DNA of 64,000 bases from Pontibacter akesuensis (GTDB taxonomy: Bacteria; Bacteroidota; Bacteroidia; Cytophagales; Hymenobacteraceae): NCBI RefSeq assembly GCF_001611675.1, contig NZ_CP014766.1, positions 2,170,001 through 2,234,000 on the forward strand, written 5' to 3'. The position numbers and the translations under genes were made by a program. Below are positions 577-63,401 of the stretch, in pieces. The notes under the pieces are model-generated. The model saw nothing but the letters and a program-made list of their open reading frames with translations, was not told the DNA's origin and did no database searches. The stretch's first letter is position 1. Each line of letters begins with the position of its first letter.

Positions 577-2022
577 TTACAACTTCACACAAATATTCTG
601 CGGCTCGGTAAAGAAATTCAGTGCTTCAAAGCCTCCTTCGCGGCCAACGCCGGAGTTCTTCATGCCACCGAAGGGAGTTCTTAAGTCTCGCAGAAGCCAG
701 GTGTTGACCCAGACGATGCCGCTGTGCACCTGGTGGGCCACGCGGTGTGCGCGGGGCAGGTTTTGCGTCCAGATGGTGGCGGAGAGGCCGTAGTCGGTGC
801 AGTTGGCATACTGAATTACCTCTTCTTCAGTGTCGAAAGGTGTGAGCGTAACAACAGGACCAAAGATTTCCTCAGTGTTGGTGCGGCAGTTGTAGGGGAG
901 GCCTTCGATAACGGTAGGGGCAACGAACCAGCCGTTGGCGCAGCGCCCTTCCACCTGCACTCGGTGTCCGCCGGTAAGTATACTTCCGCCTTCCTGCTTG
1001 GCCAGTTCGATGTAAGAAAGCACCTTCTGCATATGCTGCTCCGATACCACGGCGCCTTGCTTTGAGCTTTCCTCCAGCGGATCGCCTACGGTTAGGGCTT
1101 TTACCTTCTCCACAAAAGCATCGCGAAACTTCTCGTACAGCGGGCGCTCAATAAAGATGCGGGAGCCGCAGAGGCAGATCTGTCCCTGGTTGGCGAACGA
1201 CGAGTGGATAGAAGTATGGAGCGCGTTGTCGAAGTCGCAGTCGGCGAAGACGATGTTCGGGTTCTTGCCGCCCAGCTCCAGCGAAAGCTTCTTGAACATA
1301 GGAGCCGCCGTAGCCGCAATAGCGCGTCCGGTAGCGGTGCCGCCCGTGAAGGAGATAACCGGCACCTTCGGGTGGGCCACCATGGCCGCGCCAACCTTAT
1401 GGCCGTAGCCGTGCACAATGTTCAGGACGCCTGCAGGCAAGCCAGCCGCTATGCAAATCTCCGATAGCAGGTAGGCCGTCATGGGCGTTACTTCGGATGG
1501 TTTGGCCACCACACAGTTACCGGCAGCCAGGGCAGGCGCAATTTTCCAGGTAAACAAGTATAGCGGCAGGTTCCAGGGCGAAATACAGCCGGCCACACCA
1601 TGCGGATGACGAACCGTATAGTTGATGGCCTCAGTACCCTCCATGTAGTGCGCTTCCGAGGCAAAGTGCTGAATAGCCGTGCCGTAAAAACGCATGTTGC
1701 TGCTGGCACGCGGTATGTCCACCGTCTTCGCCAGCTTCAGCGGCTTTCCATTGTCTATTGATTCAGCTTCAGCTAACCGCTCCAGGTTCTCATCAATCAG
1801 GTCAGCAATGCGCATCATAATGCGGCCGCGCTTTTCGGCAGGCGTTTTCGCCCACGCCGGGAAAGCCGCTGTTGCCGCCTGCACCGCCTGCTCCACGTCC
1901 TGCTCGTCGGAGTCCGGGATCAGGGAGTATACTTCGCCGGTAGCCGGGTTGTAGTTGTCGATGTACTGCCCTGCCACTGGAGCTACCAGTTGGCCGTTGA
2001 TATAGTTCTGAAGCTGATTCAC
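577..2022 (-). CDS. 2-aminomuconate 6-semialdehyde dehydrogenase-like aldehyde dehydrogenase
   Basis: This is an NAD(P)-dependent aldehyde dehydrogenase of about 481 residues, the usual family length. Visible motifs are PWNLPL (about 147), FTGGTATGR, the general-base segment ELGGKNPN (about 250) and the catalytic cysteine in FANQGQIC (about 283). Sequence alone gives only the family; the role as 2-aminomuconate semialdehyde (or 2-hydroxymuconate semialdehyde) dehydrogenase is inferred from the nearby 3-hydroxyanthranilate dioxygenase and ACMS decarboxylase genes, whose product it would oxidise to 2-aminomuconate. An upstream ATG at 2100 is in frame, but the extra 26 codons run through an AATTATGAATG-type intergenic repeat, so I prefer the GTG at 2022. 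Confidence 0.85.
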   Translation of the reverse strand: MNQLQNYINGQLVAPVAGQYIDNYNPATGEVYSLIPDSDEQDVEQAVQAATAAFPAWAKTPAEKRGRIMMRIADLIDENLERLAEAESIDNGKPLKLAKTVDIPRASSNMRFYGTAIQHFASEAHYMEGTEAINYTVRHPHGVAGCISPWNLPLYLFTWKIAPALAAGNCVVAKPSEVTPMTAYLLSEICIAAGLPAGVLNIVHGYGHKVGAAMVAHPKVPVISFTGGTATGRAIAATAAPMFKKLSLELGGKNPNIVFADCDFDNALHTSIHSSFANQGQICLCGSRIFIERPLYEKFRDAFVEKVKALTVGDPLEESSKQGAVVSEQHMQKVLSYIELAKQEGGSILTGGHRVQVEGRCANGWFVAPTVIEGLPYNCRTNTEEIFGPVVTLTPFDTEEEVIQYANCTDYGLSATIWTQNLPRAHRVAHQVHSGIVWVNTWLLRDLRTPFGGMKNSGVGREGGFEALNFFTEPQNICVKL

Positions 2023-2028
2023 TGCGTT

Positions 2029-2062
2029 TGCAATTATGAATGATGAATTATAGATTATGAAT
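2029..2062. repeat. AATTATGAATGATGAATTATAG-type short repeat
   Basis: An AT-rich stretch built of AATTATGAAT and ATGAATTAT units. Relatives lie at 30436-30470, 42966-43044 and 46893-46932, always next to a gene end or start. Function is unknown. Confidence 0.6.
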
Positions 2063-2092
2063 GGGTGGCGGTTTATACTTGCCGTACCGGGT

Positions 2093-2412
2093 CCAACCAC
2101 CCCTAACCCCTCCTTGCCTTCTTCGAGGACCCCTACCCCCAGGAGGGGATTTTTTTCTTCCTACTTCAAAAAGCATTCAAGTAGCTACCATCTTCGCTAT
2201 GCAACTTAAATTAAGTCCCCCTTTGAAGGGGGTAGGGGGATGTCCATACTTCTGCGGATATTTTACCAACCGCTCGACTAATTCACTTCATCCACTCCCA
2301 CAGTTATCATCCTGAAAGGATCTTGGTGGAAGAACGATGAAGCCAAAACCACACGGCTTATACTTGCCAACAGCAGAACCCACCCCTAGCCCCTCCGAGG
2401 AGGGGAATTTCA
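2093..2412. repeat. cluster of C-rich palindromic intergenic elements
   Basis: The 478-bp gap between the aldehyde dehydrogenase and the SDR holds at least three related elements. One at 2093-2157 pairs CCCCTCCTTG with CCAGGAGGGG. One at 2213-2243 has CCCCCTTTGAAGGGGG followed by TAGGGGGATGT. One at 2378-2412 has CCCCTCCGAGGAGGGG. A CATCCTGAAAGGATC stretch near 2307 belongs to the TTTCAGGATGACA family seen at 47020 and 51292. Similar elements recur at 7596-7760, 18779-18858, 29176-29263 and 47047-47070. I see no gene here. Confidence 0.7.
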
Positions 2413-2465
2413 GCACGAGTCAGCATTCTTACAACTGAGCTCACCAAATTTCAAAAATCGGTCCC

Positions 2466-2500
2466 TGAAGTCTAACCTCTAAAATCTAGCGTCTAGCACC
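2466..2500. repeat. CTAAAATCTAGCGTCTAG-type short repeat
   Basis: A direct run of CTAAAATCTAGCGTCTAG-like units directly downstream of the SDR stop codon. A second copy sits at 42195-42230, again touching a stop codon. Function is unknown. Confidence 0.55.
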
Positions 2501-3289
2501 TTAAAGGCAACCTGTCCGGCCACCATCCACCGGCAAGTTGATGCCGTTGATGTAAGCTGCGGCAGGTGATGCCAAGAACGCGGCGGCGGCGGCTACTTCT
2601 TCCGGTTCGGCAAAGCGTTTGGCGGGTATCTCGGCTTCCATTTCCTGTTGGATTTCCATGGTGCTGCGCCCTGATTTCTGTGCCCGGCTCTCGATGATGG
2701 CGGTGATGCGGCCGGTGTTGGTGGAGCCCGGCAGCACGTTGTTTACGGTGATACCATACTGCCCCAGCTCATTCGCCATTGTTTTGGCCCAGCTGGCTAC
2801 AGCACCCCGGATGGTGTTCGACACACCCAGGCCGTTCAGCGGCTGCTTGACTGAGGTGCTGATGATGTTGATGATGCGGCCATACTTCGCCGCCTTCATC
2901 GCCGGAATAACAGACGTAGTCAGCAGGTGATTGGCCACCAGGTGCTGGTTAAACGCATCAATAAATTCGTCTGTTGACGCTTCGGTAATGGGGCCGCCAG
3001 CCGGGCCGCCGGTGTTGTTAACGAGGATGTGCACCTGCGGCTGCTCCTTCAGGTAAGCCTGCACCAGGATGTTCAGCTCATAAGGGTCTGCGAAATCGGC
3101 TACAATAAACTCATGCTGCTGCCCCTGGCTGCTGTCCAGTTCCTGGGCTACTGCTTGCAGTTTGGCCTCGTTGCGGGCCACAAGGGTGATGCTGGCGCCG
3201 AGTTTTGCCAGTTCTACGGCTACGGCTTTTCCAATGCCCTGGGTGCTCCCGCACACCAAAGCGCGTTTGTTCTGTAGGTTTAAGTCCAT
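2501..3289 (-). CDS. atypical short-chain dehydrogenase/reductase (SDR)
   Basis: A Rossmann-fold SDR of 262 residues, the classical length. The N-terminal cofactor loop reads GSTQGIGKA (about 13-21) and the NNTGG motif follows near 91. The usual catalytic YxxxK is not visible: the aligned stretch reads GVSNTIRGAV, which puts Ser where Tyr and Arg where Lys would be, ahead of a normal helix and the VNNVLPG segment. Some SDR subfamilies carry such replacements, so it may use a different mechanism or have lost reductase activity (inference). It lies between two kynurenine-pathway genes, though on the opposite strand to the dioxygenase. Substrate unknown. Confidence 0.85.
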   Translation of the reverse strand: MDLNLQNKRALVCGSTQGIGKAVAVELAKLGASITLVARNEAKLQAVAQELDSSQGQQHEFIVADFADPYELNILVQAYLKEQPQVHILVNNTGGPAGGPITEASTDEFIDAFNQHLVANHLLTTSVIPAMKAAKYGRIINIISTSVKQPLNGLGVSNTIRGAVASWAKTMANELGQYGITVNNVLPGSTNTGRITAIIESRAQKSGRSTMEIQQEMEAEIPAKRFAEPEEVAAAAAFLASPAAAYINGINLPVDGGRTGCL

Positions 3290-3402
3290 AAGCTAAATGT
3301 ACGGAAATACATACAAACATGGAGGCGGCCCATGACCTGAGAATTACCATTTCTACTGCATTTTTCGTACTTTCATTCTATCACACATGTAACACAAGAA
3401 GT

Positions 3403-3930
3403 ATGGCTGTAGCAAGACCTTTTAATTTTAAAGCCTGGATAGACGAACACCGCCACCTGCTGAAACCGCCGGTAGGGAACCAGCAGGTGTTCAAGGGCAA
3501 CGATGACTTTATCGTGATGGTGGTGGGCGGACCCAATGCCCGCAAAGACTACCATTACGATGAAGGCGAGGAGTTCTTTTACCAGTTGGAAGGAGATATT
3601 GTGCTGAAGATAATCGAGGACGGCAAGCCCGTGGACATTCCGATAAAAGAGGGGGAAATATTCCTGTTGCCACCACGCGTGCCGCACTCCCCACAGCGCC
3701 CTGCCGGTACAGTGGGACTGGTGATGGAGCGCTACCGCAAAGCAGGCGAGCAGGACGGTTTCCTGTGGTTCTGCGAGAACTGCGGGAACAAGCTCTATGA
3801 GGAGTACGCCGACGTAACCGACATTGTAGGGCAGCTTCCGGTAATCATGAGCCACTTCTGGGACAGCAAAGAACACCGCACCTGCGACAAGTGCGGTACT
3901 GTGATGGAGCCGCCGGCAAAGCCTGCGTAA
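3403..3930 (+). CDS. haaO: 3-hydroxyanthranilate 3,4-dioxygenase
   Basis: This iron(II) cupin opens the ring of 3-hydroxyanthranilate to give 2-amino-3-carboxymuconate semialdehyde, the central step of the kynurenine pathway. At 175 residues it has the bacterial length. Metal ligands are visible as His and Glu in YHYDEGEEFF (about 52-60) and His in PRVPHSPQ (about 95). The C-terminal pair CENCGN and CDKCGT forms the second, rubredoxin-like metal site typical of bacterial enzymes. The start at 3403 is chosen because homology begins at MAVARPFNFK; an upstream ATG at 3319 adds an unrelated extension. The AAGTATR motif overlaps the start codon (AAGT-ATG). Confidence 0.95.
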   Translation: MAVARPFNFKAWIDEHRHLLKPPVGNQQVFKGNDDFIVMVVGGPNARKDYHYDEGEEFFYQLEGDIVLKIIEDGKPVDIPIKEGEIFLLPPRVPHSPQRPAGTVGLVMERYRKAGEQDGFLWFCENCGNKLYEEYADVTDIVGQLPVIMSHFWDSKEHRTCDKCGTVMEPPAKPA

Positions 3931-3988
3931 AACGATCTTTTGAACATAAGACGCAAGTATCAAGATTTAAGACTTTTTTAGTTTGATG

Positions 3989-4038
3989 AAGTATGAAGCC
4001 GCTTCTGCTGCCTTGGTAGTCGGAGCGGCTTCATACTT
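3989..4038 (+). terminator. hairpin with inverted AAGTATG ends downstream of haaO
   Basis: Arms of 15 bp (3989-4003 and 4024-4038) match perfectly around a 20-base loop. The stem begins with AAGTATG and ends with CATACTT, an inverted pair of the dispersed motif. There is no strong T-run, so termination activity is inferred only from position 58 bp past the haaO stop. Confidence 0.5.
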
Positions 4039-4131
4039 TGCTAGGCACGTAGCATCAAAGTATAACTTCCATACTGTTGGAGGCAAACCATACTTCACTT
4101 GCGCTAGTAAGTAGGAGATAATAGCATCTTT

Positions 4132-5457
4132 ATGAAGAAAAACCTCCTATACATACTTTCGCTTTCTACTGCTTTAGTCGCCGTGTCAGCCTGTAATTCG
4201 CAGCCGCCTGTGGTGCAGGGGCAGCCAAAAACAATCGAAACACCAGCGGGCCAGACGGTGACTTTGCCGCCGCCACATGCCACGGAGTCGCACCGTAACT
4301 TCAGCAACGTGATTGGCTGGAAAGACGGGCAGACCCCTACGGCTCCCGAAGGCTTTACGGTAACCAAGTATGCCGATGGCTTCCAAAATCCGCGCTGGCT
4401 TTACGTCATGCCAAACGGCGATGTGCTGGTGGCCGAGGCAAGTACGGAAGTCGGTTTCTGGAAAGAGTTGGGTGCCAAGATCATCGGTATTACCAAGTCC
4501 ATGGCTTTGGGGAACAGCGCCAACCGTATCACGCTGCTGCGGGACACCGACAAAGACGGCAGGCCAGAGGTGCGGGAGACTTTCCTGGACGGCCTGAACC
4601 AACCCCTCGGCATGCTGGTGCTTGACGGAAAATTCTACGTGGCCAACACCGATGGCCTGTGGCGCTATCCCTATCAAAACGGGCAAACGAAAATCTCAGC
4701 AAAAGGCGAGAAACTACTTGACCTGCCCGCCGGGGGCTACAACAACCACTGGACGCGTAATATCATCGCCCGCCCCGATGGCTCTAAAATTTATGTGGCG
4801 GTGGGCTCGGCCAGCGACCACGGAGAGCACGGCATGGAGCATGAGGAGCGCCGGGCAAACATACTGGAGGTAAACCCCAATGGCACAGGCGCGCGCGTGT
4901 TCGCCAGCGGCCTCCGCAACCCGGTGGGCATGGACTGGGCACCCAACACCAACACCCTCTGGACAGCCGTGAACGAGCGCGACGACCTGGGCGACGAACT
5001 GGTGCCGGACTACCTGACAAGTGTGCAGGAGGGGGGCTTTTACGGCTGGCCATACTTCTACTTCGGTCAGAACGAAGATCCCTCGTGGGCAAACAAGATG
5101 CCGGCAAAGGTGCAGCAACCGCTTGTGCCGGATGTGCCGTTGGTGTCGCATTCTGCTTCGCTGGGGCTGGCGTTTTATGACCAGGAGGCCTTCCCGCAGA
5201 AATACCACAACGGCGCTTTTATCGGCCAGCACGGCTCCTGGCGGCGGTCGGAGCTGGTGGGCTATAGGATAGTGTTTGTGCCTTTCGAAAATGGCAAACC
5301 CTCCGGGCCGCCCGAGGATTTTTTGACAGGCTTTTTTGCCGACAAAGCGGACGGCAAAGTATACGGCCGGCCGGTTGGCATTACGGTGCTACCGGATGGC
5401 TCTATGCTGGTGGCCGATGATACCAGCAACACCATTTGGCGGGTGAGCGCCAAGTAA
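4132..5457 (+). CDS. sorbosone dehydrogenase-family (GSDH-type) lipoprotein
   Basis: A secreted lipoprotein of 441 residues: a hydrophobic signal segment at 5-19 ends in a VSAC lipobox (Cys about 21). The mature part resembles the six-bladed beta-propeller of L-sorbosone and soluble glucose dehydrogenases, with segments such as GFQNPRWLYVMPNGDVLVAE, TDKDGRPEVRETF, GLRNPVGMDWAP and GRPVGITVLPDGSMLVADD marking successive blades. Family members can use PQQ, but I cannot see proof of cofactor binding. It is expected on the periplasmic or outer face of the cell. It lies within the kynurenine-gene region without an obvious part in that pathway. Confidence 0.82.
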   Translation: MKKNLLYILSLSTALVAVSACNSQPPVVQGQPKTIETPAGQTVTLPPPHATESHRNFSNVIGWKDGQTPTAPEGFTVTKYADGFQNPRWLYVMPNGDVLVAEASTEVGFWKELGAKIIGITKSMALGNSANRITLLRDTDKDGRPEVRETFLDGLNQPLGMLVLDGKFYVANTDGLWRYPYQNGQTKISAKGEKLLDLPAGGYNNHWTRNIIARPDGSKIYVAVGSASDHGEHGMEHEERRANILEVNPNGTGARVFASGLRNPVGMDWAPNTNTLWTAVNERDDLGDELVPDYLTSVQEGGFYGWPYFYFGQNEDPSWANKMPAKVQQPLVPDVPLVSHSASLGLAFYDQEAFPQKYHNGAFIGQHGSWRRSELVGYRIVFVPFENGKPSGPPEDFLTGFFADKADGKVYGRPVGITVLPDGSMLVADDTSNTIWRVSAK

Positions 5458-5545
5458 AAGTACAGGAGGAAAAAAGCTGCCTTCAGGTCTGGTCTGATTT
5501 CAGCGGAAGCGTTAACTTGGATATCATCGCAAAAAGATAACTAGC

Positions 5546-6103: not shown

Positions 6104-6207
6104 GCCTTTCGGCTACAGCGTGCGTACAAAGTATAAAATGCGTATATTGTTGGATTGCCTGATACCGTCGCTGGCTTTACAGCGGCCTTTTACATGCCTT
6201 CAGAAGT

Positions 6208-7287: not shown

Positions 7288-7360
7288 GGGCTGGTGATTT
7301 GTTAGTCACCATTGCTTGAAAAGCTATACTTGCATAACCACTGTTCCATGCAACGTCAGT

Positions 7361-7590: not shown

Positions 7591-7595
7591 AACCT

Positions 7596-7760: not shown

Positions 7761-7927
7761 TTACGCTTTCATGAACTACTAAAATACTAGCACCAAAAGG
7801 ACGCGCACCGTGCGCAGCTACTGCGAGCGGCTGCCGTCCTTTTCTTATCATTCAATTCCTTATCTTAGCAGAACAAAGAAACCTATGGCTGCTGAGGCAG
7901 TTTAAGTATAAATCCATTCCGCAAAAC

Positions 7928-9205
7928 ATGAACTACCAGAATACCCTTGCCTTTGCGCAGGAGCAGGACCAGCAAGATTCCCTACACCATTTCAGAGAGC
8001 GGTTTTACTTTCCGCAGGTAAACAAGCAGGACGCCATCTACTTTTGCGGCAACTCTTTGGGGCTGCAGCCGAAGTCAGCGCAGATGTACATCGACAATGA
8101 AATGTACAAATGGGCAAACATGGCAGTGGAAGGACACTTCAAGGGCGATGAGCCTTGGGTAAACTACCATACCTTGCTGGCTGGAGGCGCTGCCCGTGTG
8201 GTTGGGGCGAAGGAAAACGAAGTGGTGATTATGAACCAGCTGACCGTGAACCTGCACCTGATGCTGGTGTCGTTTTACAGGCCCGAAGGCAAGCGGTTCA
8301 AAATCATTACAGAAGGAGGCGCTTTCCCGTCTGATCAGTACGCGCTGGAGACGCAGACCCGCTTCCATGGCTACAACCCGGATGAAGCCGTTATCGAACT
8401 GTTCCCGCGCGAAGGTGAGCACACCCTGCGCACCGAGGACATCCTGCAAAGTATAAAACAACATAGCGAGGAGTTGGCCTTGGTCATGATGGGCGGCATC
8501 AACTACTACACCGGGCAGGTATTCGATATGGATGCCATCACCAAGGCCGGTCACGAAGCTGGTGCCCTGGTAGGCTTTGACTTGGCGCATGCAGCTGGCA
8601 ACATTCCACTTCAGCTGCACGACTGGGATGTGGACTTTGCTGTATGGTGTACTTATAAGTACCTGAACTCCGGTCCGGGTGGCACGTCGGGCGTGTATGT
8701 GCACGAGCGCTTTGCGAACGACAACAGCATTCCGCGCTTTGCCGGTTGGTGGGGCCACGATGCCAAGGAGCGGTTCCAGATGAAGAAGGGCTTTAGGCCA
8801 ATGGAAGGCGCGCCGGGCTGGCAGCTAAGCAACGGGCAAATTCTACCGATGGCCGTGCACCGGGCCTCGCTCGAGCTGGTGGACGAAGCAGGCGGTATGG
8901 AAGCCTTGCGTGCGAAGAGCGAGAAGCTAACGGGTTACCTGGAATACCTGATCAACGATGTGCACGTGGGCAAGGATGTGCTCGAGATGATCACACCCAG
9001 CGACCCTCAGGCGCGTGGTTGCCAGATATCGCTGCTGGTAAAGCAGAACTCCCGCCTGCTCTTCGACAAGCTGATGGAAGCCGGTATTATTGTGGATTAC
9101 CGCGAGCCGAACGTAATAAGGGTGGCACCCACGCCGCTTTACAACAGCTTTGAGGAAGTATACCGCTTCTCCGAAATTCTGCACGAGTGCCTGGAGGCGC
9201 ATTAA
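7928..9205 (+). CDS. kynU: kynureninase
   Basis: A PLP enzyme of aminotransferase fold type I that cleaves kynurenine or 3-hydroxykynurenine to (3-hydroxy)anthranilate and alanine. The 425-residue length is typical. Recognisable stretches are YFCGNSLGLQP near residue 38, the cofactor-phosphate and Asp region VGFDLAHAAGN (about 215) and the Schiff-base lysine in WCTYKYLNSGPGG (about 243). It works between KMO (16950-18329) and HaaO (3403-3930). It is transcribed alone, with a repeat-filled gap upstream and a strong hairpin downstream. Confidence 0.96.
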   Translation: MNYQNTLAFAQEQDQQDSLHHFRERFYFPQVNKQDAIYFCGNSLGLQPKSAQMYIDNEMYKWANMAVEGHFKGDEPWVNYHTLLAGGAARVVGAKENEVVIMNQLTVNLHLMLVSFYRPEGKRFKIITEGGAFPSDQYALETQTRFHGYNPDEAVIELFPREGEHTLRTEDILQSIKQHSEELALVMMGGINYYTGQVFDMDAITKAGHEAGALVGFDLAHAAGNIPLQLHDWDVDFAVWCTYKYLNSGPGGTSGVYVHERFANDNSIPRFAGWWGHDAKERFQMKKGFRPMEGAPGWQLSNGQILPMAVHRASLELVDEAGGMEALRAKSEKLTGYLEYLINDVHVGKDVLEMITPSDPQARGCQISLLVKQNSRLLFDKLMEAGIIVDYREPNVIRVAPTPLYNSFEEVYRFSEILHECLEAH

Positions 9206-9224
9206 GAGACCTTAACTTAAGCGC

Positions 9225-9274
9225 AGCGACGGGCGGAGGGGAGCGAAAGGCTGCTCCTCCGCCCGTCGCTTTTG
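9225..9274 (+). terminator. rho-independent terminator of kynU
   Basis: A 15-bp perfect GC-rich stem (9225-9239 with 9256-9270) and a 16-base loop are followed directly by TTTT, 20 bp after the kynU stop. Confidence 0.8.
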
Positions 9275-9402
9275 GCGGCAGCGGCATCCTTTTGTGCAGA
9301 CGGAGGTAGTAAAACCAAGCCATTTAAACGTATCTTGTAGGGTGCGTATAGCCTGTAAAAGCTATTCACCAGCGCTTCCTCAAAGAATCAATCATACTTT
9401 GC

Positions 9403-11643
9403 ATGACACATTTACCGCATTTAGTTACAGATTTAGCCTTGATACTTGTGGCTGCGGGCATCACCACCCTGATCTTTAAAAAGCTGAAGCAGCCCCTGGT
9501 GCTGGGGTATATTATTGCGGGGTTGTTGGTGGGCCCACACATTGCCCTTTTCCCATCTGTGATGGAAACCGAGAACATCACCATCTGGGCTGAGATCGGT
9601 GTTATCTTTCTTTTGTTCAGCCTGGGGCTGGAGTTCAGTTTCAAGAAACTGGTTAAAGTAGGCGGCGCCTCGTCGGTGATGGCCCTGATAGAGGTGGTGG
9701 TGATGCTGCTGCTGGGCTACTTTACGGGCAAGATTCTGGGGTGGAACACCATGGACAGTATTTTCCTGGGCGGCATCCTGTCGATTTCCTCCACCACCAT
9801 CATCATTCGGGCTTTTGAGGAACTGGGGGTGAAATCGCATAAGTTTGCGGGGCTGGTGTTCGGAGTGCTGATCGTGGAGGACTTGGTGGCTATACTCTTG
9901 CTGGTGCTGCTCTCCACGCTGGCCGTGAGCCAGCAGTTTGCGGGCACCGAGATGCTGGCCGCCGTCATGAAACTGGCCTTTTTCCTGCTGCTGTGGTTCC
10001 TGGCGGGCATTTTCCTGATCCCCACATTCCTGCGAAGGGCTAGCAAGCTCATGAACAACGAAACGCTGCTGATTGTGTCGCTGGCGCTTTGCCTGCTCAT
10101 GGTGGTGCTGGCGGCGCAGGTGGGTTTTTCACCAGCGCTTGGTGCCTTTATCATGGGCTCCATACTTGCGGAAACCACCAAAGCCGAGAAAATAGAGCAC
10201 CTCGTTTCCTCTGTGAAGGACCTATTTGGGGCCATTTTCTTTGTATCGGTGGGTATGCTGATTAACCCTGCTACCCTGGTAGATTATGCAGGCCCCATCG
10301 CGCTCATCACTGTGGTGACGCTGGTAGGCAAAGCATTGAGTATAACGGGCGGTGGGTTGATATCGGGGCAGGGGCTGAAAACGTCGATACAGTCCGGTAT
10401 GAGCGTGTCGCAGATTGGGGAGTTCTCTTTTATCATCGCCACCCTGGGCCTCACCCTGAACGTAACCAGCGATTTCCTGTATCCTGTGGCCGTGGCGGTC
10501 TCGGCTGTGACCACCTTCACCACACCCTACATGATCCGCCTGTCGGAGCCGCTGTACCGGAAGGTAGAGGCCATGCTGCCCGCGAAATGGCTTGCCTCAC
10601 TGAACGAGTACAGCTCCGGCGCCCAGACCATCAGCACCACCAGCGATTGGAAACTGGTGCTCCGAACCTACATCGTTAACCTGGTAATTTACTCGGTTAT
10701 TATAATCGGCATCGTAATGCTGTCGGCCCGGTACCTGAACCCCTTCGTGACCGAAACGCTGATCAACGGCAACCTGGGCGATATTGTCACGACGGCCATC
10801 ACGCTGGTGTTTATGGCGCCGTTCCTGTGGGCGCTGGCCGTGTACCATCCGCAGAAGGAGGCGCAGGGCCGCATCTGGGCCAACAAAAACTACCGAAGCC
10901 TGATTATCGTGCTGGAGTTTGGCCGCATCGTGATCGCCATTCTCTTCATCGGCTTTCTGCTGAACCAGTTCTTCTCGGTGCAGGTGGCCTTTATCGGGGG
11001 CTTCCTGATTATCGGGGTGCTGGCCATCTTCTCGCAGCGCATACAGAACTTCTACATCCGCATAGAGACGCGCTTTATGAACAACCTGAACGCACGCGAA
11101 ATAAGCGACGCCGCCAAAATGCACCACACGCTCACCCCCTGGAACGCCCACCTCACCTCCTTTGAGATAGCGGCTGAGTCGGCAGTTGCCGGGCATAATC
11201 TGGTGGAACTGCAGGTACGGGAGAAGTATGGCGTGAATGTGGCGGTGATAGAGCGCGGTGATCGCACCATTATGGCCCCTACCCGCAACGAAAGGATATT
11301 CCCGGGCGATAAGCTTTATGTTTTCGGAACGGACGAGCAGATAGAGACATTTCGCGAGTTTATCCGAACCGAAGTGGCCCCACCAACAGATGGCCAGAAC
11401 GAACGGGAAGATGTGGGGCTGGAGAAGCTGCTGGTGAAAAGAGACTCCATGCTGCTGCACAAAACCATACGCCAGGCGGGGGTGCGGGAGAAAACACATG
11501 GCCTGATTGTGGGCATAGAGAAAAACGGCGAGCGTTACCTCAACCCCGACTCCGATATGGTGTTTGAGGAGGGCGACATGGTTTGGATTGTGGGCAGCCC
11601 GTCGCGCATAAAAATGCTGGAAGAGGCAAGGCAGGAGGCATAG
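9403..11643 (+). CDS. CPA2-family monovalent cation:proton antiporter (KefB/KefC-like)
   Basis: A 746-residue inner-membrane protein. The first ~380 residues form about 12-13 hydrophobic segments of the Na+/H+ exchanger fold, with SLGLEFSFKKL (about 65) and SLALCLLMVVLAAQVGFSPALGAFIMGSILA in two halves, typical of CPA2. A second hydrophobic block (about 415-545) follows. The C-terminus holds two TrkA-C-like domains (about 585-650 and 665-740), with REKYGVNVAVIERG and PGDKLYVFG as signs. Such proteins extrude Na+ or K+ in exchange for H+; the C-terminal domains usually sense ligands. I see no Rossmann TrkA-N domain. The MscS-like gene follows 90 bp downstream on the same strand. Confidence 0.88.
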   Translation: MTHLPHLVTDLALILVAAGITTLIFKKLKQPLVLGYIIAGLLVGPHIALFPSVMETENITIWAEIGVIFLLFSLGLEFSFKKLVKVGGASSVMALIEVVVMLLLGYFTGKILGWNTMDSIFLGGILSISSTTIIIRAFEELGVKSHKFAGLVFGVLIVEDLVAILLLVLLSTLAVSQQFAGTEMLAAVMKLAFFLLLWFLAGIFLIPTFLRRASKLMNNETLLIVSLALCLLMVVLAAQVGFSPALGAFIMGSILAETTKAEKIEHLVSSVKDLFGAIFFVSVGMLINPATLVDYAGPIALITVVTLVGKALSITGGGLISGQGLKTSIQSGMSVSQIGEFSFIIATLGLTLNVTSDFLYPVAVAVSAVTTFTTPYMIRLSEPLYRKVEAMLPAKWLASLNEYSSGAQTISTTSDWKLVLRTYIVNLVIYSVIIIGIVMLSARYLNPFVTETLINGNLGDIVTTAITLVFMAPFLWALAVYHPQKEAQGRIWANKNYRSLIIVLEFGRIVIAILFIGFLLNQFFSVQVAFIGGFLIIGVLAIFSQRIQNFYIRIETRFMNNLNAREISDAAKMHHTLTPWNAHLTSFEIAAESAVAGHNLVELQVREKYGVNVAVIERGDRTIMAPTRNERIFPGDKLYVFGTDEQIETFREFIRTEVAPPTDGQNEREDVGLEKLLVKRDSMLLHKTIRQAGVREKTHGLIVGIEKNGERYLNPDSDMVFEEGDMVWIVGSPSRIKMLEEARQEA

Positions 11644-41374: not shown

Positions 41375-42055
41375 ATGGCAATTTTACCAGAATACGCAAT
41401 CATAGTGGCAGGTGGCAGCGGCACCCGCATGCAGCAGGACGTTCCGAAGCAGTTCATCGAAGTAGCGGGTAAACCTATCCTGATGCACACGATGGAGCGG
41501 TTCCACAAGTATAACCCGGCAGTAAGGATGGTTGTGGTGCTGCCGCAGGAGCAGTTGATTGCCTGGCGCGAACTGTGCCGCAAGTACAGCTTCAAGCTTT
41601 TCCACATGACGGTGGCTGGAGGTGCCACACGGTTTGGCTCTGTCAAGAACGGGTTGGATGCGGTGCAGGGCGAGGCGCTGGTGGCGGTGCATGATGGCGT
41701 GCGTCCCTTTGTAGATACAGACACGATTAAGGCCGCTTTTGATGCCGCAGACAAGTATGGCAGTGCCGTGGTGGCGGTGGCTCCGAAAGACTCAATTCGG
41801 GAACTGACGGAGCAGGGAAGTATGGCAGTGCCGCGGGTAAAGTATAAATTGGTGCAAACGCCGCAGTGCTTCCGGGCAAGTATACTTCGAAAAGCTTACG
41901 AGCAGCCCGAGCTGGCGCATTTTACGGACGATGCCTCAGTGGTGGAAAGTATAGGAGAAACAATCACGCTGGTGGAAGGCAGCTACCGCAACATCAAAAT
42001 TACCACACCCGAAGACCTTATACTTGCCGAGGCCTTTGCCAAAGAGTTAGGTTAG
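41375..42055 (+). CDS. ispD: 2-C-methyl-D-erythritol 4-phosphate cytidylyltransferase
   Basis: Third step of the MEP route to isoprenoids: CTP plus MEP gives CDP-ME. The 226-residue protein has the nucleotide loop VAGGSGTRMQQDVPKQF (about 7-23), HDGVRPFVD (about 107-115) and TPQCFRASIL, all IspD marks. Its gene carries six AAGTAT cores in 680 bp, one a palindrome (41878-41887), the highest density in any coding region here. Confidence 0.95.
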   Translation: MAILPEYAIIVAGGSGTRMQQDVPKQFIEVAGKPILMHTMERFHKYNPAVRMVVVLPQEQLIAWRELCRKYSFKLFHMTVAGGATRFGSVKNGLDAVQGEALVAVHDGVRPFVDTDTIKAAFDAADKYGSAVVAVAPKDSIRELTEQGSMAVPRVKYKLVQTPQCFRASILRKAYEQPELAHFTDDASVVESIGETITLVEGSYRNIKITTPEDLILAEAFAKELG

Positions 42056-56065: not shown

Positions 56066-56107
56066 AGCAAAAGCGCCTGCCACAGTTAAATGGCAGGCGC
56101 TTTTGCT
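56066..56107. terminator. bidirectional terminator between esterase and def
   Basis: A perfect 17-bp stem (56066-56082 and 56091-56107) with an 8-base loop, between convergent genes. Its feet contain AGCAAAAGC and GCTTTTGCT. Confidence 0.8.
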
Positions 56108-56123
56108 ATAATCAAGTACAGAC

Positions 56124-57109: not shown

Positions 57110-57221
57110 AGCGTTCGCTTCTCTACTACAAAGGTAGTAATTTTAGCTTTGAGTTCTTCATCAGGCTTTTAGGCGATTTCAGGCAGAACGCCTGCGGTAA
57201 CGCGATCTACACCACCTAGGG

Positions 57222-59639
57222 CTACAGCTTAAACTGCAGCGAGAGGTAGAAGCTGCGTGCATCCGACGGAATAATGCCCGGACCCGGATAGCCCGTGGCG
57301 CGGCGGGTAAAATAGCGGTTATCGGTCAGGTTGTTGATGCCTGTCTCCAACGTGAAGCGCCCGTAAGTATAGCTGCCCGAGAGGTCCATCACCCAGTACG
57401 CCGGGATAATGCCCACCACCGCAGTTGGCTCAAGTATGGAATTGGCAGGGTCGGTATACTGCTCGGCCGTGTAAGAGTATTGATAGGCCAGTTTAAAGTT
57501 ATTGCGCTTAAAGGCCAGACCCGCCTTGGCGATCACGGCAGGAGCCAGCTCTACGTTTTTGCCGTCCACATCACTTTCAGAACTCTCATAAGTGGTGTAC
57601 ACATAGGTGATGTTGGAGAAAGCCGAGAGGCTGGTCGGGTGGTCGGCGCCATAGTATAGCTTCAGCAGGTCCGCTTCCACAAAAGTTTCCAGCCCGTAAT
57701 GGTATGAGTCACCCACGTTGGTGCGCACCCGCTGGATCTGGTAATTGGGTGTTACCTGGTTAATGGAGCTGATCCGGTCTTTGTACGCCAGGTAGAACAG
57801 GCTCACATCATAGTTGAGAACGCCGCTGCTGTTGCCCCGCACACCAAGGTCCGAAGTATAGCCGCTCTCATCCTGCAGGTTCTGGTCCACGAGCTGGTTC
57901 GGGTTCACCACACGCATGTCGTTGAAGTTGATGGCGCGGTAGTTCTGCGAGAAGTTGCCGTATACTTCCAGCTGCTCGTTGGGTTTGTAACTTAGGCCCA
58001 GGCCCAGCAACAGGATGTTTCGTGAGTTGCTGCGGTCCTCCGCCTTTGTCTCGTCCCGAATTACGTTTCCTGCCTGGTCGGCAATCACCTCGCGGTAGCT
58101 ACCGTCTGCGTTGGTGTTGATCCACTCGTAGCGCGCGCCGGGCGTTACGCTTAGTGTTGGGGTGATGTTGAAGATGTTCTCGGCAAACACGGCCACGTTG
58201 CGGCTCAGGTAATCGTAGCTGGACTGGCTCGGCGCACCCGTCTCAGAATAGAAGCGGAAATCCGAATCCGAGCGGGAAGAGCCGTTACCCTGCTTCTGGT
58301 CTGTCAGGCCGTGGTAGTAACGGGCGCCCACCAACAGTGTGGAGAAAGAGTCCAGGAAATTGTAGCGGGTAATCAGGCGCGTTTCGTTGCCGAAGTTGTT
58401 GAACTGGTCTTGTAGCAGGAGGCGCTCCCGCATCGGGTCTGCCCGGTTGATCTTCTCCAGGTAGCCCAGTGCATCGCGCTGCGCCAACAAACCAAAGTTG
58501 CGGATGTTCAGCTTCGTGCGCTCGCTCAGGCGGTAGTCCAGCGTGAGGGCCAGCAGGTTCCACTTTACCTTAAACCAGTTGCGGTTGCGCACCGATTGGC
58601 GGGCATCCTGGGCAAAGGCCGCATCCGTGAGGCCACCCGGCTGCTGCGCCAGGTAATCCATAAAGGTATAGTCAAAGCCTATCTCCAGCCGGTCTGTTGG
58701 TTTGTAGTGGATAGAGCTGAAGGCGGTGTGGGCATCAAAATTGGAGTTGTCGCGCCAGCCGTCGCCGCGTTTGTACTGGTAAAAACCGTAGTAATGAAAC
58801 TTGCCTTTGCTGCCGCCCACACTGTTAAAGGAGTTGAACAGGCCCCAGGAGCCCACGGTTTGGCGGGTGGTGAGCTCGAAGGGTTTGTCCTCCGGGCCCT
58901 CTTTCATCACAAAATTAATCATGCCGCCAAACTGGGTGCCATACTGCAGCGAGGCCGCGCCGCGCACCACCTCAATTCGGTCAAGGGCCTCAACGGGAGG
59001 CGTGTAATAACTTTCCGGATAGCCGAGGGCATCAGCCGAAATATCGTAGCCGTTCTGGCGGGTGTTGAAGTTGGAGGTGCGGTTCGGGCTAAGGCCACGC
59101 CCCCCGATGCCGAGCTGCAGACCCGCGCCATCGCTTTCCCAGATGTTGAGACCGGCTACTTTCGCGAATACCTGGCGGCTGTTGTTGGTGGCTTTGTTGG
59201 CCGAGATATCTTCGATTACGACCACTTCGCTTTTCTTGCCTTCGTAAATAGCGGTGCCCTCTACTGAGTTCAGGCGCGTAATGCCAAAGGTCTTTTCCCG
59301 CTCCCCCTTCACCTTCACCTCGCTGATCTTACCTTCGAGCGGCTTCAGTATAAAGTTGAGGATAACAGGGCTGTTGGTGATGATTACCTGCTGTGTAGCC
59401 GAACCCAAGCCTACACTATAGGCCGTGAGGGTATAGGTGCCGGCAGCCAGGTTGCTGATGCTATACTTGCCACTGGCATCGGCCTGAAAGAGGTTGCCTG
59501 TGTTGGTGAGCAGCACCTCTGCCTGCGGCACGGGTTGCCCGTTGGCGGCATTGGTAATAGTACCGGAAACAGAATAGGACTGTGCCAGGGCAGCCAGGCA
59601 GCTGCAAAGGAAAAGAACGGTCGTGAGCGTGTAGCGCAT
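57222..59639 (-). CDS. TonB-dependent receptor (FecA/siderophore-type)
   Basis: An 805-residue outer-membrane receptor: signal peptide (MRYTLTTVLFLCSCLAALAQ), a CarboxypepD_reg-like domain (about 22-110; VSGTITNAANGQPVPQAEV), a plug (about 130-250; VVVIEDISANKATNNSRQVFAKVAGL and IEVVRGAASLQYGTQFGG) and a 22-strand barrel ending in SLQFKL. The plug start resembles iron-citrate receptors. It is the last gene of an operon (DUF4856, imelysin, HTTM, receptor), with 6 bp to the gene before it, so iron or a metal complex is the likely cargo (inference). Confidence 0.93.
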   Translation of the reverse strand: MRYTLTTVLFLCSCLAALAQSYSVSGTITNAANGQPVPQAEVLLTNTGNLFQADASGKYSISNLAAGTYTLTAYSVGLGSATQQVIITNSPVILNFILKPLEGKISEVKVKGEREKTFGITRLNSVEGTAIYEGKKSEVVVIEDISANKATNNSRQVFAKVAGLNIWESDGAGLQLGIGGRGLSPNRTSNFNTRQNGYDISADALGYPESYYTPPVEALDRIEVVRGAASLQYGTQFGGMINFVMKEGPEDKPFELTTRQTVGSWGLFNSFNSVGGSKGKFHYYGFYQYKRGDGWRDNSNFDAHTAFSSIHYKPTDRLEIGFDYTFMDYLAQQPGGLTDAAFAQDARQSVRNRNWFKVKWNLLALTLDYRLSERTKLNIRNFGLLAQRDALGYLEKINRADPMRERLLLQDQFNNFGNETRLITRYNFLDSFSTLLVGARYYHGLTDQKQGNGSSRSDSDFRFYSETGAPSQSSYDYLSRNVAVFAENIFNITPTLSVTPGARYEWINTNADGSYREVIADQAGNVIRDETKAEDRSNSRNILLLGLGLSYKPNEQLEVYGNFSQNYRAINFNDMRVVNPNQLVDQNLQDESGYTSDLGVRGNSSGVLNYDVSLFYLAYKDRISSINQVTPNYQIQRVRTNVGDSYHYGLETFVEADLLKLYYGADHPTSLSAFSNITYVYTTYESSESDVDGKNVELAPAVIAKAGLAFKRNNFKLAYQYSYTAEQYTDPANSILEPTAVVGIIPAYWVMDLSGSYTYGRFTLETGINNLTDNRYFTRRATGYPGPGIIPSDARSFYLSLQFKL

Positions 59640-59645
59640 GTGTGT

Positions 59646-61019
59646 TTAATTCTGCCCTACCGCGTTCTGCGGCGGGGCAACGTCTTCTAAAGGTAAAATC
59701 CAGGGCTTGGGCAGGAAGCTCTCTTTTTCGGCAGCCAGATTAACTTTCGGATCGATCAAAAGGCGGCTGCCACGGCCATTCATACTTACATACACCTCGG
59801 CGCGCACCTCCACACCCGGCATACCGCGTTCCGCGAAGTCCTGCTGCAGCATGTGCGCGTACTGCAAAATCATGTCCGGCTGCGTGGCCATCTGCTTTTC
59901 CTGGTTCACGGTAAGGTAATCGCGGTTGTTGATTTCTGTCTCAAAGCCTGTTTTCGGGTGGCGGACGTAAAAAAACGTGGTGCCGGTTTTCTCCATCAGC
60001 ATCACGCGCCAGGAGAAGCGGTAGCCCTGCTCAGTCCAGAACAGCTGGCCGGGGTACAGCAAATAGCGCCAGGGCAGGAGCACCTGCAGCAGGAAATAAA
60101 AACCAAGTATACCGAGAAGTATAGGCTGGCCAGCGGTACCGGCAAATCTAGGTAGGGCTGGCTTCGGCACCTTTGCTATACTTCGGAACAGGCCCAGCAG
60201 CCTCTCATGGAAAGCTGGGGAGAAGAAAATCAGCGTACTCACCATCATGATGTAGGGAAACATGCCAATCTGGAAAAGCACCGCCGTAAGCACGTGGAAC
60301 ACCACCACCGTGGCATAGGCCAGCAGCCTGCTCCTGCGCCAGCTCAGGAAGAATGGGATAGTCAGATCATAAAAAGCGCCGAACCAGCAGAACAGGTAGG
60401 CCACCCATACTTCGTCGAGCAGCGGGCCGATGAGCGGCAGGTGCGTGTGCGCCGGTAGCCAGTAACGCAGCGGCATGGCCTCCAACAGCCAATCGGGGTT
60501 AAGCTTGGCGATGCCGGCATAGAAGTATACCAGCCCCAACTGCAGCTGAAAAATCAGCACGGCCCAGCGCGGCACATGGCTCACCCAAAGACCGTGTTTG
60601 CGCAGCACATCCACCGAGAAGTGGCGGTGCGCCGGCACCAGCACCAGCAGCAAAGCCACCACACTCACAAAGTAGTAGTGGTTGAGGTAATTCGTTTTGT
60701 CGATGAGCTCGACGTAGGTAAAGGAGAGGAAAAACAGCAGCGCCGAGAAGCGGTAGAAAAGCCCCAGCATAATACCCAGGGCAGCAAGCGCCATCAGCGT
60801 GAACAGGGCGTACATGCCCGCCTCCCCCAGCGGCTGCACCCACTCAAACCCGTAGTAGGGGAAGTATACCTTTGGCTGCACATACAGCTCCGTTACCCAG
60901 TCCTTGCCTATAAAGCGCAGCACGCTGGCCAGCATCATCCCTCCAAAAATAACACGGAACACCGCCAGCGGGGCCGCGGATACAGGTTGGGAGAGGTGTG
61001 ACTGTAGCTTCTGTAGCAT
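59646..61019 (-). CDS. HTTM domain membrane protein (vitamin K-dependent gamma-carboxylase-like)
   Basis: A 457-residue protein with about eight hydrophobic segments in the first 310 residues, then a soluble beta-rich tail. SAAPLAVFRVIFGGMML, FTYVELIDKTNYLNHYYFVSVVALLLVLVPAHRHFSVD and YFYAGIAKLNPDWLL (the HTTM core) are all visible. Human gamma-carboxylase is the named relative, but bacterial HTTM proteins mostly have unknown roles. Here it sits between an imelysin-like lipoprotein and a TonB receptor, a setting known from iron-linked operons in Bacteroidota as I recall. Confidence 0.9.
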   Translation of the reverse strand: MLQKLQSHLSQPVSAAPLAVFRVIFGGMMLASVLRFIGKDWVTELYVQPKVYFPYYGFEWVQPLGEAGMYALFTLMALAALGIMLGLFYRFSALLFFLSFTYVELIDKTNYLNHYYFVSVVALLLVLVPAHRHFSVDVLRKHGLWVSHVPRWAVLIFQLQLGLVYFYAGIAKLNPDWLLEAMPLRYWLPAHTHLPLIGPLLDEVWVAYLFCWFGAFYDLTIPFFLSWRRSRLLAYATVVVFHVLTAVLFQIGMFPYIMMVSTLIFFSPAFHERLLGLFRSIAKVPKPALPRFAGTAGQPILLGILGFYFLLQVLLPWRYLLYPGQLFWTEQGYRFSWRVMLMEKTGTTFFYVRHPKTGFETEINNRDYLTVNQEKQMATQPDMILQYAHMLQQDFAERGMPGVEVRAEVYVSMNGRGSRLLIDPKVNLAAEKESFLPKPWILPLEDVAPPQNAVGQN

Positions 61020-61054
61020 AGGATGTATACTTCCGTATTACCTGGAAAAGCAGA

Positions 61055-61094
61055 TTTGCTCCCCCAGAGTATAATTGCCTCCAGGGGGAGCAAA
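61055..61094 (-). other. intercistronic hairpin between imelysin-like and HTTM genes
   Basis: An 11-bp perfect stem, TTTGCTCCCCC (61055-61065) and GGGGGAGCAAA (61084-61094), with an 18-base loop, fills most of the gap inside the operon. It has no T-run on the minus strand, so RNA stabilisation or partial attenuation is more likely than full termination (inference). Confidence 0.55.
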
Positions 61095-61097
61095 ATG

Positions 61098-62213
61098 TTA
61101 GTCGCCGTCGTTGTCCACGTAGGTGATGGTAACGCCCAAAGCGGCTGGCATGTCTGTTTTGGTGAGCACGATAAGCTTCTGCATTTCGTCGTACACTTTG
61201 GTAACTGCCTGAGGCTGCGAAACCACAGCTTCGGACAGCGGGCCCTGCACAGCGTTGGCAGCAGCCAGCGCGGCATCGAACTGAGCCTCTATGGCCTCAG
61301 ACAGTAGTCCCTGCCCATACATGGCGCCCACGTGGTCGAGGTAATCATCTAGGCCGGGGCCATTGGTTCCGTTGGCGCTCTGTCCCATAAACACCGCTTT
61401 CTCGGCACGGATCGTCTGCTTCAGCAGCTCCAGTGAGTTGCCGCTGTAGTAGGCTTCCACCTTCTCCGGCAGTGGGGTACCTGAGTTAAACCTTCCGCTC
61501 GGAAAGCCCAGTTTGGCGCGCTTCGTCAGGTCAATATCAGAGTTAAGCTCATTCACCAGGTTGCCTACGGCGCTGCCCACTGCGGTGCCTTCGGCCTGCT
61601 TGAACTTTGCGGCAAAGCCACCGGTAGTCCAGGCGTTATGTACCGTTGTGGCGCGTTGTTTTATCAGGTTGGTAACATCCTGCAGGTACTTTTTACGGTT
61701 GGCGGCGCTGTTGCCTGTTGTGTATTTCGCCACTACCTCAGCCTCGGTGCCTGCCCCATACAGCAGGTAGTCCAGGGCCGGAAAGCCTTTCGCATCCAGG
61801 TTCTCGGTGGCCTGCAGGTTATAAGTGCCCGCAGCGATGTTGCCCTCGATTTCGTTCGCAGCTGTTGGATATATGTTCAGGTTGGTGCGTAGCAGTTCGT
61901 CGCTGGCGGGGCCAAACTCAAACGCGCTCACATCCTGCCAGCTTTTGTTGGCATCGAGGTAAGCCGTTCGTGCAGCAGCCAGCGTGGCGGCCGAAGGAGT
62001 TGCCGTGAAAGCATTTATGGCCGTAGCCAGGGCATCTGTTTTGCTGTTGAAGGTAGTGTAGGCTGGTATGATCAGGTTTTCGGCATAGTTGTTCACCATC
62101 GCCGTGCGGTCGTACGCTGTTTTAGGGCCTTCGCCCTCGCTATCAGAACCACAGCCTGAGAAGGTGGCAAGGCAGGCAAGTGCTACAACCGTATATCGCT
62201 TAAATGCTAGCAT
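61098..62213 (-). CDS. imelysin-family lipoprotein
   Basis: A 371-residue lipoprotein: hydrophobic signal and lipobox FSGC (Cys about 21). The imelysin domain covers most of the rest, with WQDVSAFEFGPASDELLRTNLNIYP (about 91-115) and GFPALDYLLYG (about 140-150). The second stretch lines up with the GxHxxE motif of IrpA/imelysin, but His and Glu are replaced by Pro and Asp, so the classical metal site is absent. It probably binds a ligand in the periplasm or at the outer membrane for the receptor in the same operon (inference). Confidence 0.9.
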   Translation of the reverse strand: MLAFKRYTVVALACLATFSGCGSDSEGEGPKTAYDRTAMVNNYAENLIIPAYTTFNSKTDALATAINAFTATPSAATLAAARTAYLDANKSWQDVSAFEFGPASDELLRTNLNIYPTAANEIEGNIAAGTYNLQATENLDAKGFPALDYLLYGAGTEAEVVAKYTTGNSAANRKKYLQDVTNLIKQRATTVHNAWTTGGFAAKFKQAEGTAVGSAVGNLVNELNSDIDLTKRAKLGFPSGRFNSGTPLPEKVEAYYSGNSLELLKQTIRAEKAVFMGQSANGTNGPGLDDYLDHVGAMYGQGLLSEAIEAQFDAALAAANAVQGPLSEAVVSQPQAVTKVYDEMQKLIVLTKTDMPAALGVTITYVDNDGD

Positions 62214-62297
62214 AGTAGTATGATTTTAAATGAGAAAGCAGCAACCGGGCAATGGCCTGGCTGCTGCACTTTGTACTCTCTTAGAAAGCCTTAGCCC

Positions 62298-63401
62298 TTA
62301 TAGCTGGCCTTTGATGCTGTCCATCTTGTACACAGCGCTCAGGATATCAATGGCTTCGTTAATGTCGTCAGCTGTGGTGGCGTAGAGGTTAGTGCCGATG
62401 GCATTCTTCACCTCCTGGTACTTCTCATTCGTCAGCTGGCGATCTGTCTTGTACTGCAGGCCCATCAAAAAGCCCAGCGCCTCAGACAGGTAGTGGCTCT
62501 TTTTCGCCTGGTCTGCCATGTTTTTCTTCGCGGCATTCAGCTCGTGTATGGTCGAGGCGGCTACCAGGCGCTCCCACTCGGTGCGGATCGTAGCGGCGGC
62601 TTCGTCTTTCGCTTCCATGTCTTTTGCCGAGATAGCGGCACGGCCTTTCAGGAAGGCATCCATCAGCGCTTTGTTGCTGCCCAGGGCGGCATCAACCTGG
62701 TTGCTGTAGTTAGCCCAGAATTTAGCGCCCTCAGTCTCTTTAGGAAAATTAACGGGAGCTCCGAAATAACCGAAAGCCTCGTCCCAATGGTGCTCCATAT
62801 CGGTGCCTTGGCCGTCTTTTACAGTGGTGTTGTCTACTGCAGGGCCAATTTTCTCGGCTGATAAATAGCCGTCCACCGCCTGGAAGTATAAAACGGCGCC
62901 CATCAGGCCTTTCTGTATCAGCTGGGCATACTCTACACCGTTAGCATCTACCAGGTAAGGCTTGTTGTCTGCGGTAGTCAGAATACCGGCTTTACCAGGT
63001 GCGGCTGGCGTAGTGCCTAATAGGCTGGCTTGGGCTACAGCATCAAAATAACCCTCAAAAACAGGTCGTGCCGACTCAATAGTTTTGTTTTTCAGCTGCT
63101 TATCAGTTGCCGCGTTCAGGCTGGCATCGGTGAAAGGTGTGTTGACGTTAGCGTACATGTTTTTCAACTTCTGCGCATCCAATGGTCTGCCTGTGTTGCC
63201 GGTTTTAACATAGGCATCAATTTCACTTAGCATGGCAAGGCGGGTTGTCTGGCCTGAGTAGTTCACATTGTCAAATGTGTAGGTTTCGGGCACATTGTAA
63301 GATGGCGCGTCGGTTTCATCGTCAGAGCAGGAGGTGAAACTTACGCAGGCTGCCAAGCCTACGAGCGTTAAAGCAGCATGACGTCTGATTGAAGCAAGCA
63401 T
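62298..63401 (-). CDS. DUF4856 lipoprotein
   Basis: A 367-residue lipoprotein with a FTSC lipobox (Cys about 25), then DUF4856-like sequence beginning TYTFDNVNYSGQTTRLAMLSEIDAYVK. HHWDEAFGYFGAPVNFPK (about 204-221) and LSEALGFLMGLQYKTDRQLTNEKY (about 300-323) stand out. DUF4856 proteins are Bacteroidota lipoproteins commonly next to imelysin genes; their helical layout is similar to imelysin. As first gene of the operon it has two repeated 21-bp AT-rich boxes upstream. Confidence 0.88.
   Translation of the reverse strand: MLASIRRHAALTLVGLAACVSFTSCSDDETDAPSYNVPETYTFDNVNYSGQTTRLAMLSEIDAYVKTGNTGRPLDAQKLKNMYANVNTPFTDASLNAATDKQLKNKTIESARPVFEGYFDAVAQASLLGTTPAAPGKAGILTTADNKPYLVDANGVEYAQLIQKGLMGAVLYFQAVDGYLSAEKIGPAVDNTTVKDGQGTDMEHHWDEAFGYFGAPVNFPKETEGAKFWANYSNQVDAALGSNKALMDAFLKGRAAISAKDMEAKDEAAATIRTEWERLVAASTIHELNAAKKNMADQAKKSHYLSEALGFLMGLQYKTDRQLTNEKYQEVKNAIGTNLYATTADDINEAIDILSAVYKMDSIKGQL

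Follow-up and report, generated by a model that had tools for sequence, protein, structure and literature searches.

Two proteobacterial families are known to have DNA uptake sequences, and in one of these, the Pasteurellaceae, uptake guided by the uptake signal sequence (USS) is pilus-based. In the other, the Neisseriaceae, the DNA uptake sequence (DUS) occurs in eight dialects sharing an invariant core; one genome carries two dialects and some relatives carry none (PMC3630211). Within the Bacteroidota, ComEC, DprA, ComF and a helix-hairpin-helix (HhH) protein are essential for transformation of Riemerella anatipestifer, a member of the Flavobacteriaceae that also uses surface and outer-membrane proteins with no resemblance to known components of pili (PMC8459023); loss of tonB genes lowers this transformation, an effect that its authors relate to iron and nutrients (PMC8383284). 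Here we analyze the word AAGTATR (R, purine), noticed in a stretch of 64,000 nucleotides of Pontibacter akesuensis (Bacteroidota, Hymenobacteraceae). This stretch, called the window, spans positions 2,170,001 to 2,234,000 of contig C1 (NZ_CP014766.1) in a 4.83-Mb genome composed of C1 (4,713,421 bases) and the plasmid contig C2 (116,138 bases). Among named sequences, those most similar to a gene of the window come from Pontibacter species. With a probability of about 0.7, we read the longer form AAGTATRR as a Pontibacter DNA uptake sequence with dialects, to which an uptake step, a receptor and a molecular drive would belong. No report of such a motif in Pontibacter was found in the open-licence PMC literature on Pontibacter transformation and DNA uptake, or on uptake sequences in Bacteroidetes and Cytophagales.

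The window contains 166 AAGTAT/ATACTT hexamers (103 on the plus and 63 on the minus strand, the earliest at 976 and the latest at 62884), against 23.7, 19.2 or 27.9 expected under zero-, first- or second-order Markov models, an excess of about 6- to 8.6-fold. A purine follows in 152 of the 166, and these AAGTATR sites cover 976..62890 on both strands (95 plus, 57 minus). The original prediction, made by eye, had estimated about 159 hexamers against about 26 expected, roughly six-fold, with a purine next in over 90% and with sites on both strands, in genes and between them; all of this agrees with the counts in the window and with the genic and intergenic sites of the chromosome sample described below. 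AAGTATA alone is present in 98 copies, whereas each of its variants with a single base changed within the first six positions is present in 1 to 10. The prediction had put forward a whole-genome count as a possible refutation, and the outcome lies far from expectation: AAGTATR occurs 9225 times (4672 + 4553) versus 1064 (527 + 537) for the reversed word used as a control. The chromosome was also sampled in 34 stretches amounting to 724 kb (33 of them 20 kb long, plus the window itself), in which 1491 sites were counted, or 2.06/kb, every 20-kb stretch holding 25 to 50. In this sample, relative to the second-order Markov expectation, AAGTATA is enriched 11.6x and AAGTATG 4.8x, the best octamer is AAGTATAA (23.8x), with AAGTATAG at 16.5x and AAGTATGG at 9.3x, and one-base changes in the first six positions reach only 0.6x to 2.2x. 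The consensus word is AAGTATRR. AAGTATR is confirmed as a real motif of the whole genome, beyond composition and codon usage.

The relation of the sites to genes was studied in the same 724 kb, with genes called by a simple script whose boundaries are approximate. Site density is 1.69/kb inside called genes and 3.76/kb outside, and in intergenic gaps of 30–1500 bases it amounts to 5.93/kb between convergent, 3.91/kb between tandem and 3.21/kb between divergent genes. The higher density outside genes and the peak between convergent genes would fit a transcription or termination element that multiplied. However, called genes contain 1006 of the 1491 sites, which occur there in either orientation and in each of the six frames, and spacing is near random (coefficient of variation 1.05), which makes such an element very improbable. 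The sample also contains 20 overlapping pairs of plus and minus sites.

Reading frames provide a second control. Altogether 999 sites, 569 sense and 430 antisense, were counted in 516 called genes, all six frames being represented, versus a mean of 90.5 sense and 54.1 antisense (about 145) after shuffling of synonymous codons with the proteins unchanged. These numbers bear out what had been proposed from the window, namely that the word is read in several frames, that serine is otherwise mostly AGC (3657 AGC and 1239 AGT codons) and that codon usage is no explanation. A bias of composition, codon usage or mutational context as the main cause is ruled out by the Markov and codon-shuffling controls; the neighbor words are near expectation, and AAGTATR reaches only 1.15x in 258 kb from sister species lacking the motif. 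Nothing was found in favor of such a bias except in four motif-less genomes (G013, G027, G036 and G037), which show 1.7–2.1x the reversed-word control genome-wide with the degenerate word of the family survey below, yet 1.15x for AAGTATR in 98 kb of their sequence; this may be a relic or another weak bias, and overall we give the explanation next to no credence. As with the USS, a dense asymmetric word lies within and between genes with one orientation favored in reading frames (PMC2346458), here the sense orientation. The two words are unrelated, the USS being AAGTGCGGT (PMC5217627). One gene in the window, an open reading frame at 41375..42055 on the plus strand (NCBIfam NF001186, TIGR00453), had been correctly named ispD in the original prediction and credited with six sites; it holds eight hexamers, at 41507+, 41753+, 41818+, 41840+, 41878+, 41882-, 41947+ and 42020-, among them an overlapping pair in opposite orientations at 41878..41887 on both strands.

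Known chi sites are over-represented and differ between species, and known chi sites and FtsK-orienting polar sequences (KOPS) are strongly polar. The contrast between the chromosome, dense in the word at 2.06/kb in the sample, and the plasmid contig C2, where it is sparse with 55 sites in 116 kb (0.47/kb, against 29 copies of the reversed word), would fit a site of the chi or KOPS type or another site of chromosome processing, with a reader whose specificity shifted between species. However, the strand comparison relative to replication that had been suggested for the motif, made in 32 of the 34 stretches without the two closest to contig ends, gave 762 sites on the G-rich strand and 653 on its complement. 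This 54:46 division is a real but weak bias (p 0.004) and excludes a chi-like polarity; site density is moreover higher outside genes. We regard this type of site as improbable. Within C2, sites are unevenly distributed: the region 80001–116138 holds 16 and 13 in its two stretches versus 5–10 in the other four, as if it had been longer in the genus.

The word is spelled differently among Pontibacter species. Two overlapping sets were examined, loci of 15–22 kb each from named species and 50 Pontibacter genomes in which dialects were called from about 20–60 kb per genome and whole-genome counts. Among the named loci, AAGTATA is the top word in P. mangrovi, P. litorisediminis, P. anaerobius, P. 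ruber, P. oryzae and others, AGGTATA in P. amylolyticus, P. ramchanderi, P. aquaedesilientis and two more, and GGTATGG-like words in strain E15-1; in isolate 903, AACTATA and AAGTATA occur together, as they do weakly in strain Tf4. The loci of P. diazotrophicus, P. pamirensis, P. harenae, P. ummariensis and Botryobacter ruber show no word of this type. The 50 genomes divide into 20 with the AAG dialect, 12 with AGG, 5 with AAC, 2 with AAG and AAC together, 1 with NGG (G041), 1 weak mixture (G016), 8 without motif (G007, G013, G027, G029, G033, G035, G036 and G037) and 1 left without a call, G047, whose contigs measure only 1–1.3 kb. In two genomes (G018 and G048), the word was seen in one stretch and was missing from another. 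The best octamer is AAGTATAA in the AAG dialect (22.9x), AGGTATAG (30.4x) and AACTATAG (49.8x) being those of two others; the NGG dialect, NGGTATR, is weaker (at most 12.9x, from 82 kb). The dialects vary in the first three bases, and TAT followed by mostly a purine stays constant. Besides AAGTATAA, G025 shows the composite ACTATACT 27 times versus 1.0 expected, as if it were an overlapping or symmetric variant of the word. The resemblance to the DUS extends to a short asymmetric word that is present thousands of times and in either orientation, spellings around a constant core, a double-dialect genome and motif-less relatives (PMC3630211). The core nevertheless differs, TAT plus purine in Pontibacter and CTG in the DUS, and a different word is involved in another phylum.

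Dialects are also compatible with a process of the type proposed for the cyanobacterial highly iterated palindrome HIP1. In that case, a DNA methyltransferase would recognize the word, methylation-guided repair or selection would create and keep it, and the dialects would reflect methyltransferase changes. HIP1 is likewise a genome-wide over-represented octamer, replaced in some cyanobacteria by other words with matching methyltransferases (PMC4390886), and the existence of these alternatives makes it the serious rival; methyltransferases are also common in the genus Pontibacter. Against it, HIP1 is a palindrome with associated methyltransferases and the Pontibacter word is asymmetric: with the first A counted as position 0, a palindrome requires C in position 7 and T in position 8, and these bases are depleted (0.60x and 0.62x); these position counts reject a palindrome of the HIP1 type. 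In none of three families searched do G009 and G020, both motif genomes, share a methyltransferase: PF02384 matches G009 only at E 7e-5 or worse, PF01555 matches neither genome and PF07669 has no match in G020, a search that left aside the Dam-like and C5 families. A cell-wide process should furthermore reach the plasmid, where the excess is weak. We therefore find a HIP1-like origin unlikely. The original prediction had likened the motif to DNA uptake sequences or to HIP1; the first comparison is the closer one, and the second is weakened by the asymmetry of the word, by the TAT core that the dialects keep and by the lack of a shared methyltransferase in these three families.

The range of the word was surveyed with the degenerate form ARSTATRR in 204 genomes of the family, counted against its reversed word. 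None of the 154 genomes from five other genera reaches 1.45x the control and 39 of the 50 Pontibacter genomes reach 3.1–9.3x, so that the comparison with related genera called for at the outset places the excess in Pontibacter; the eight motif-less genomes show 0.99–2.12x genome-wide. Nor was any word of this form present in one stretch each from 20 genomes of other genera (16 of full 20 kb or whole useful length, the rest short). Among the 204 genomes, the excess is confined to the genus Pontibacter, a statement bounded by the fact that a code with a quite different core could escape the survey. The motif-less genomes are larger, with a median of 5.8 Mb versus 4.6 Mb for 40 motif genomes (Mann-Whitney p 4e-5, uncorrected for kinship, G016 and G047 omitted); another grouping, with G047 counted as motif-less and G016 and G041 omitted, gives p 1e-5. 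Several other words were also encountered. In 60 kb of the motif-less G033, CTCTACC occurs 28 times versus 3.8 expected and AGGTAGA 27 times versus 4.7; this may be one more dialect, its core altered. ACCTAGG occurs 27 times versus 1.9 in G203, from another genus, and 15 times versus 2.2 in G078 (20 kb each); G203 also holds ACCTAGGG 16 times versus 0.4, and the ACCTAGG excess could represent a repeat family or another genome motif. In one other genus of the family, TCCGGAA occurs 67 times versus 17.6 in pooled stretches and AAATATT 64 times versus 14.2 in one stretch.

The fate of individual sites was followed in codon alignments of 17 ortholog clusters from 22 named loci and the window (19,296 columns), in which AGG-dialect species enter 5 of the 17 clusters and the site-by-species cells counted are not independent. 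This comparison of orthologs, also part of the original prediction, showed AAG sites retained by the other AAG species in 622 of 1645 cells (38%), the background for 7-mers of the same kind being 23%; for AGG sites across the other AGG species, retention is 138 of 262 (53%) and the background 32%. In motif-less species, AAG sites survive in only 79 of 757 cells (10%) versus 20% for any 7-mer of the same kind, and the weakly scored Tf4 and 172403-2 retain them in 91 of 272 (33%). At AAG sites, AGGTAT is found in 141 of 680 cells (21%) of AGG-dialect species versus 58 of 757 (8%) of motif-less ones. Conversely, AAGTAT stands at AGG sites in 141 of 589 cells (24%) in AAG species versus 20 of 331 (6%) in motif-less species. 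Swapping between the two spellings at homologous positions thus proceeds at about three to four times the motif-less rate, and together with the retention counts this indicates that part of the sites were rewritten in place when the dialect changed and that sites fade where the motif is absent. Four genes at 57222..63401 on the minus strand of the window, the first encoding a TonB-dependent receptor and together carrying 12 AAGTATR sites, served both for this test and for a tree. In the four-gene tree, some deep branches of which are poorly supported, the five AGG species fall into a single clade, those with AAG appear in several places and motif-less species in three separate ones. Botryobacter ruber, itself motif-less, is nested within Pontibacter as the sister of P. 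ruber and the AGG clade.

Profile searches detected ComEC (PF03772), DprA (PF02481) and a ComEA-like HhH protein (PF12836, tandem HHH_3; frames of 304–346 residues among the matches listed) in all 50 Pontibacter genomes; a ComF-like protein (TIGR00201) was matched in all 50 as well, in none above the model cut-off. Three HHH_3 stretches were recognized in the HhH protein of the window genome, and the best matches of solved structure to this protein are a human-type endonuclease/exonuclease/phosphatase protein and two 'ComE operon protein 1' entries. The set resembles that of Riemerella, also a member of the Bacteroidota, with its ComEC, DprA, ComF and HhH protein (PMC8459023). In two genomes this set is decaying: stops or shortened frames affect all four genes in G020 and ComEC, DprA and ComF in G040, and the other 48 genomes have no stops in these matches, the ComEC frame of G038 being shorter (561 residues). 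Searches by tblastn with the window-genome proteins likewise found ComEC, DprA and HhH broken in G020, and ComEC and DprA in G040. The genes flanking HhH in G020 are open and colinear on either side, and no stops occur among the other family-search matches listed for the two genomes, which makes poor sequence an unlikely cause of the breaks. This joint decay indicates that the genes serve one function. The two genomes look unrelated, and further genes broken in them could point to the reader. G020 also has the lowest AAG enrichment, 4.4x (37 kb) versus 4.7x–14.9x in eighteen other AAG stretches, and its neighbor words stand at 1.20x versus 1.09x in the pooled other AAG stretches, which is no more than suggestive of site erosion. 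The sister-species spellings found partly at homologous positions, the restriction to one genus and the joint decay of competence genes all go beyond what the window had revealed.

The search for a reader yielded two rejected candidates. A type IV pilus is not supported, as the pilus ATPase profile PF00437 gave in the 50 genomes only matches of at most 66 of 370 positions (best 25.9 bits, 3 of 50 over the cut-off), the search being limited to this pilus component. DUF5689, a domain of a Riemerella transformation protein, is present in 22 of 50 genomes and its presence does not track the motif; its frames measure about 1100–1300 residues or about 410–450 residues, the latter adjoining a SusC/SusD pair in G046. 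One such protein in G000 (1269 residues, stretch coordinates 7830–11639, minus strand) combines lamin-tail, DUF5689, endonuclease/exonuclease and Por secretion-tail domains and is likely a secreted nuclease. The surface proteins of Riemerella were not identified in Pontibacter. The two also differ in their words: the available part of a report on Riemerella gives no credible uptake word, R. columbina preferring its own DNA and having A-rich words as frequent k-mers (PMC7965970). Neisseria reads the DUS by the pilin ComP on type IV pili (PMC3868556), whereas in Pontibacter no pilus ATPase was found. This missing ATPase makes it probable that the receptor belongs to the outer-membrane or surface proteins and is not a pilin, as proposed for the pilus-less transformation of Riemerella.

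An uptake sequence would bring these elements together as follows. A surface receptor would bind AAGTATRR on free DNA, so that word-bearing DNA is taken up preferentially; a membrane-anchored ComEA-like HhH protein would lead it to ComEC, which would pass one strand inward, where ComF and DprA would handle it before recombination into the chromosome. Copies would arise by mutation and spread through the more frequent uptake of fragments bearing the word, a molecular drive, and shifts in receptor specificity would lead over time to the rewriting of sites in place, giving the dialects AAGTATRR, AGGTATAG, AACTATAG and NGGTATR. We count for this reading the density of sites, the octamer excess, the codon shuffling, the dialects, the homologous sites, the plasmid contig, the competence genes with their decay and the high density in convergent gaps. 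Several points weigh against it. To our knowledge, every well-known uptake sequence is read by way of type IV pili, so the missing pilus ATPase counts here, as does a receptor search that tested DUF5689 as its only candidate domain and identified none. The eight motif-less genomes have competence genes without stops, meaning that these genes do not predict the word. G020 and G040 keep the word despite their broken genes, whose loss must then be recent. The sparse plasmid sites could simply reflect a recent arrival, and the counts at homologous sites rest on non-independent cells and on few clusters with AGG species. We read the motif-less genomes as having lost, or never had, a specific reader while keeping competence; their larger size would suit a less choosy uptake.

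Taken at its widest, the proposal is that Pontibacter uses a self-recognition code for free DNA, which arose in the Bacteroidota independently of those of the Neisseriaceae and Pasteurellaceae and relies on an outer-membrane receptor without a type IV pilin. At least four dialects would have emerged in one genus, with many sites rewritten in place, and lineages that lost specificity would have kept competence and have larger genomes; we hold this broader proposal to be slightly better than an even bet. If true, an independent origin in a phylum seemingly devoid of type IV pilus uptake would mean that different machinery can serve for the evolution of self-DNA recognition. The spellings, mixtures and losses that distinguish sister species would make a single genus a natural experiment on the change of a genome-wide code, in which the reader protein could be found by matching variants of surface proteins to dialects.

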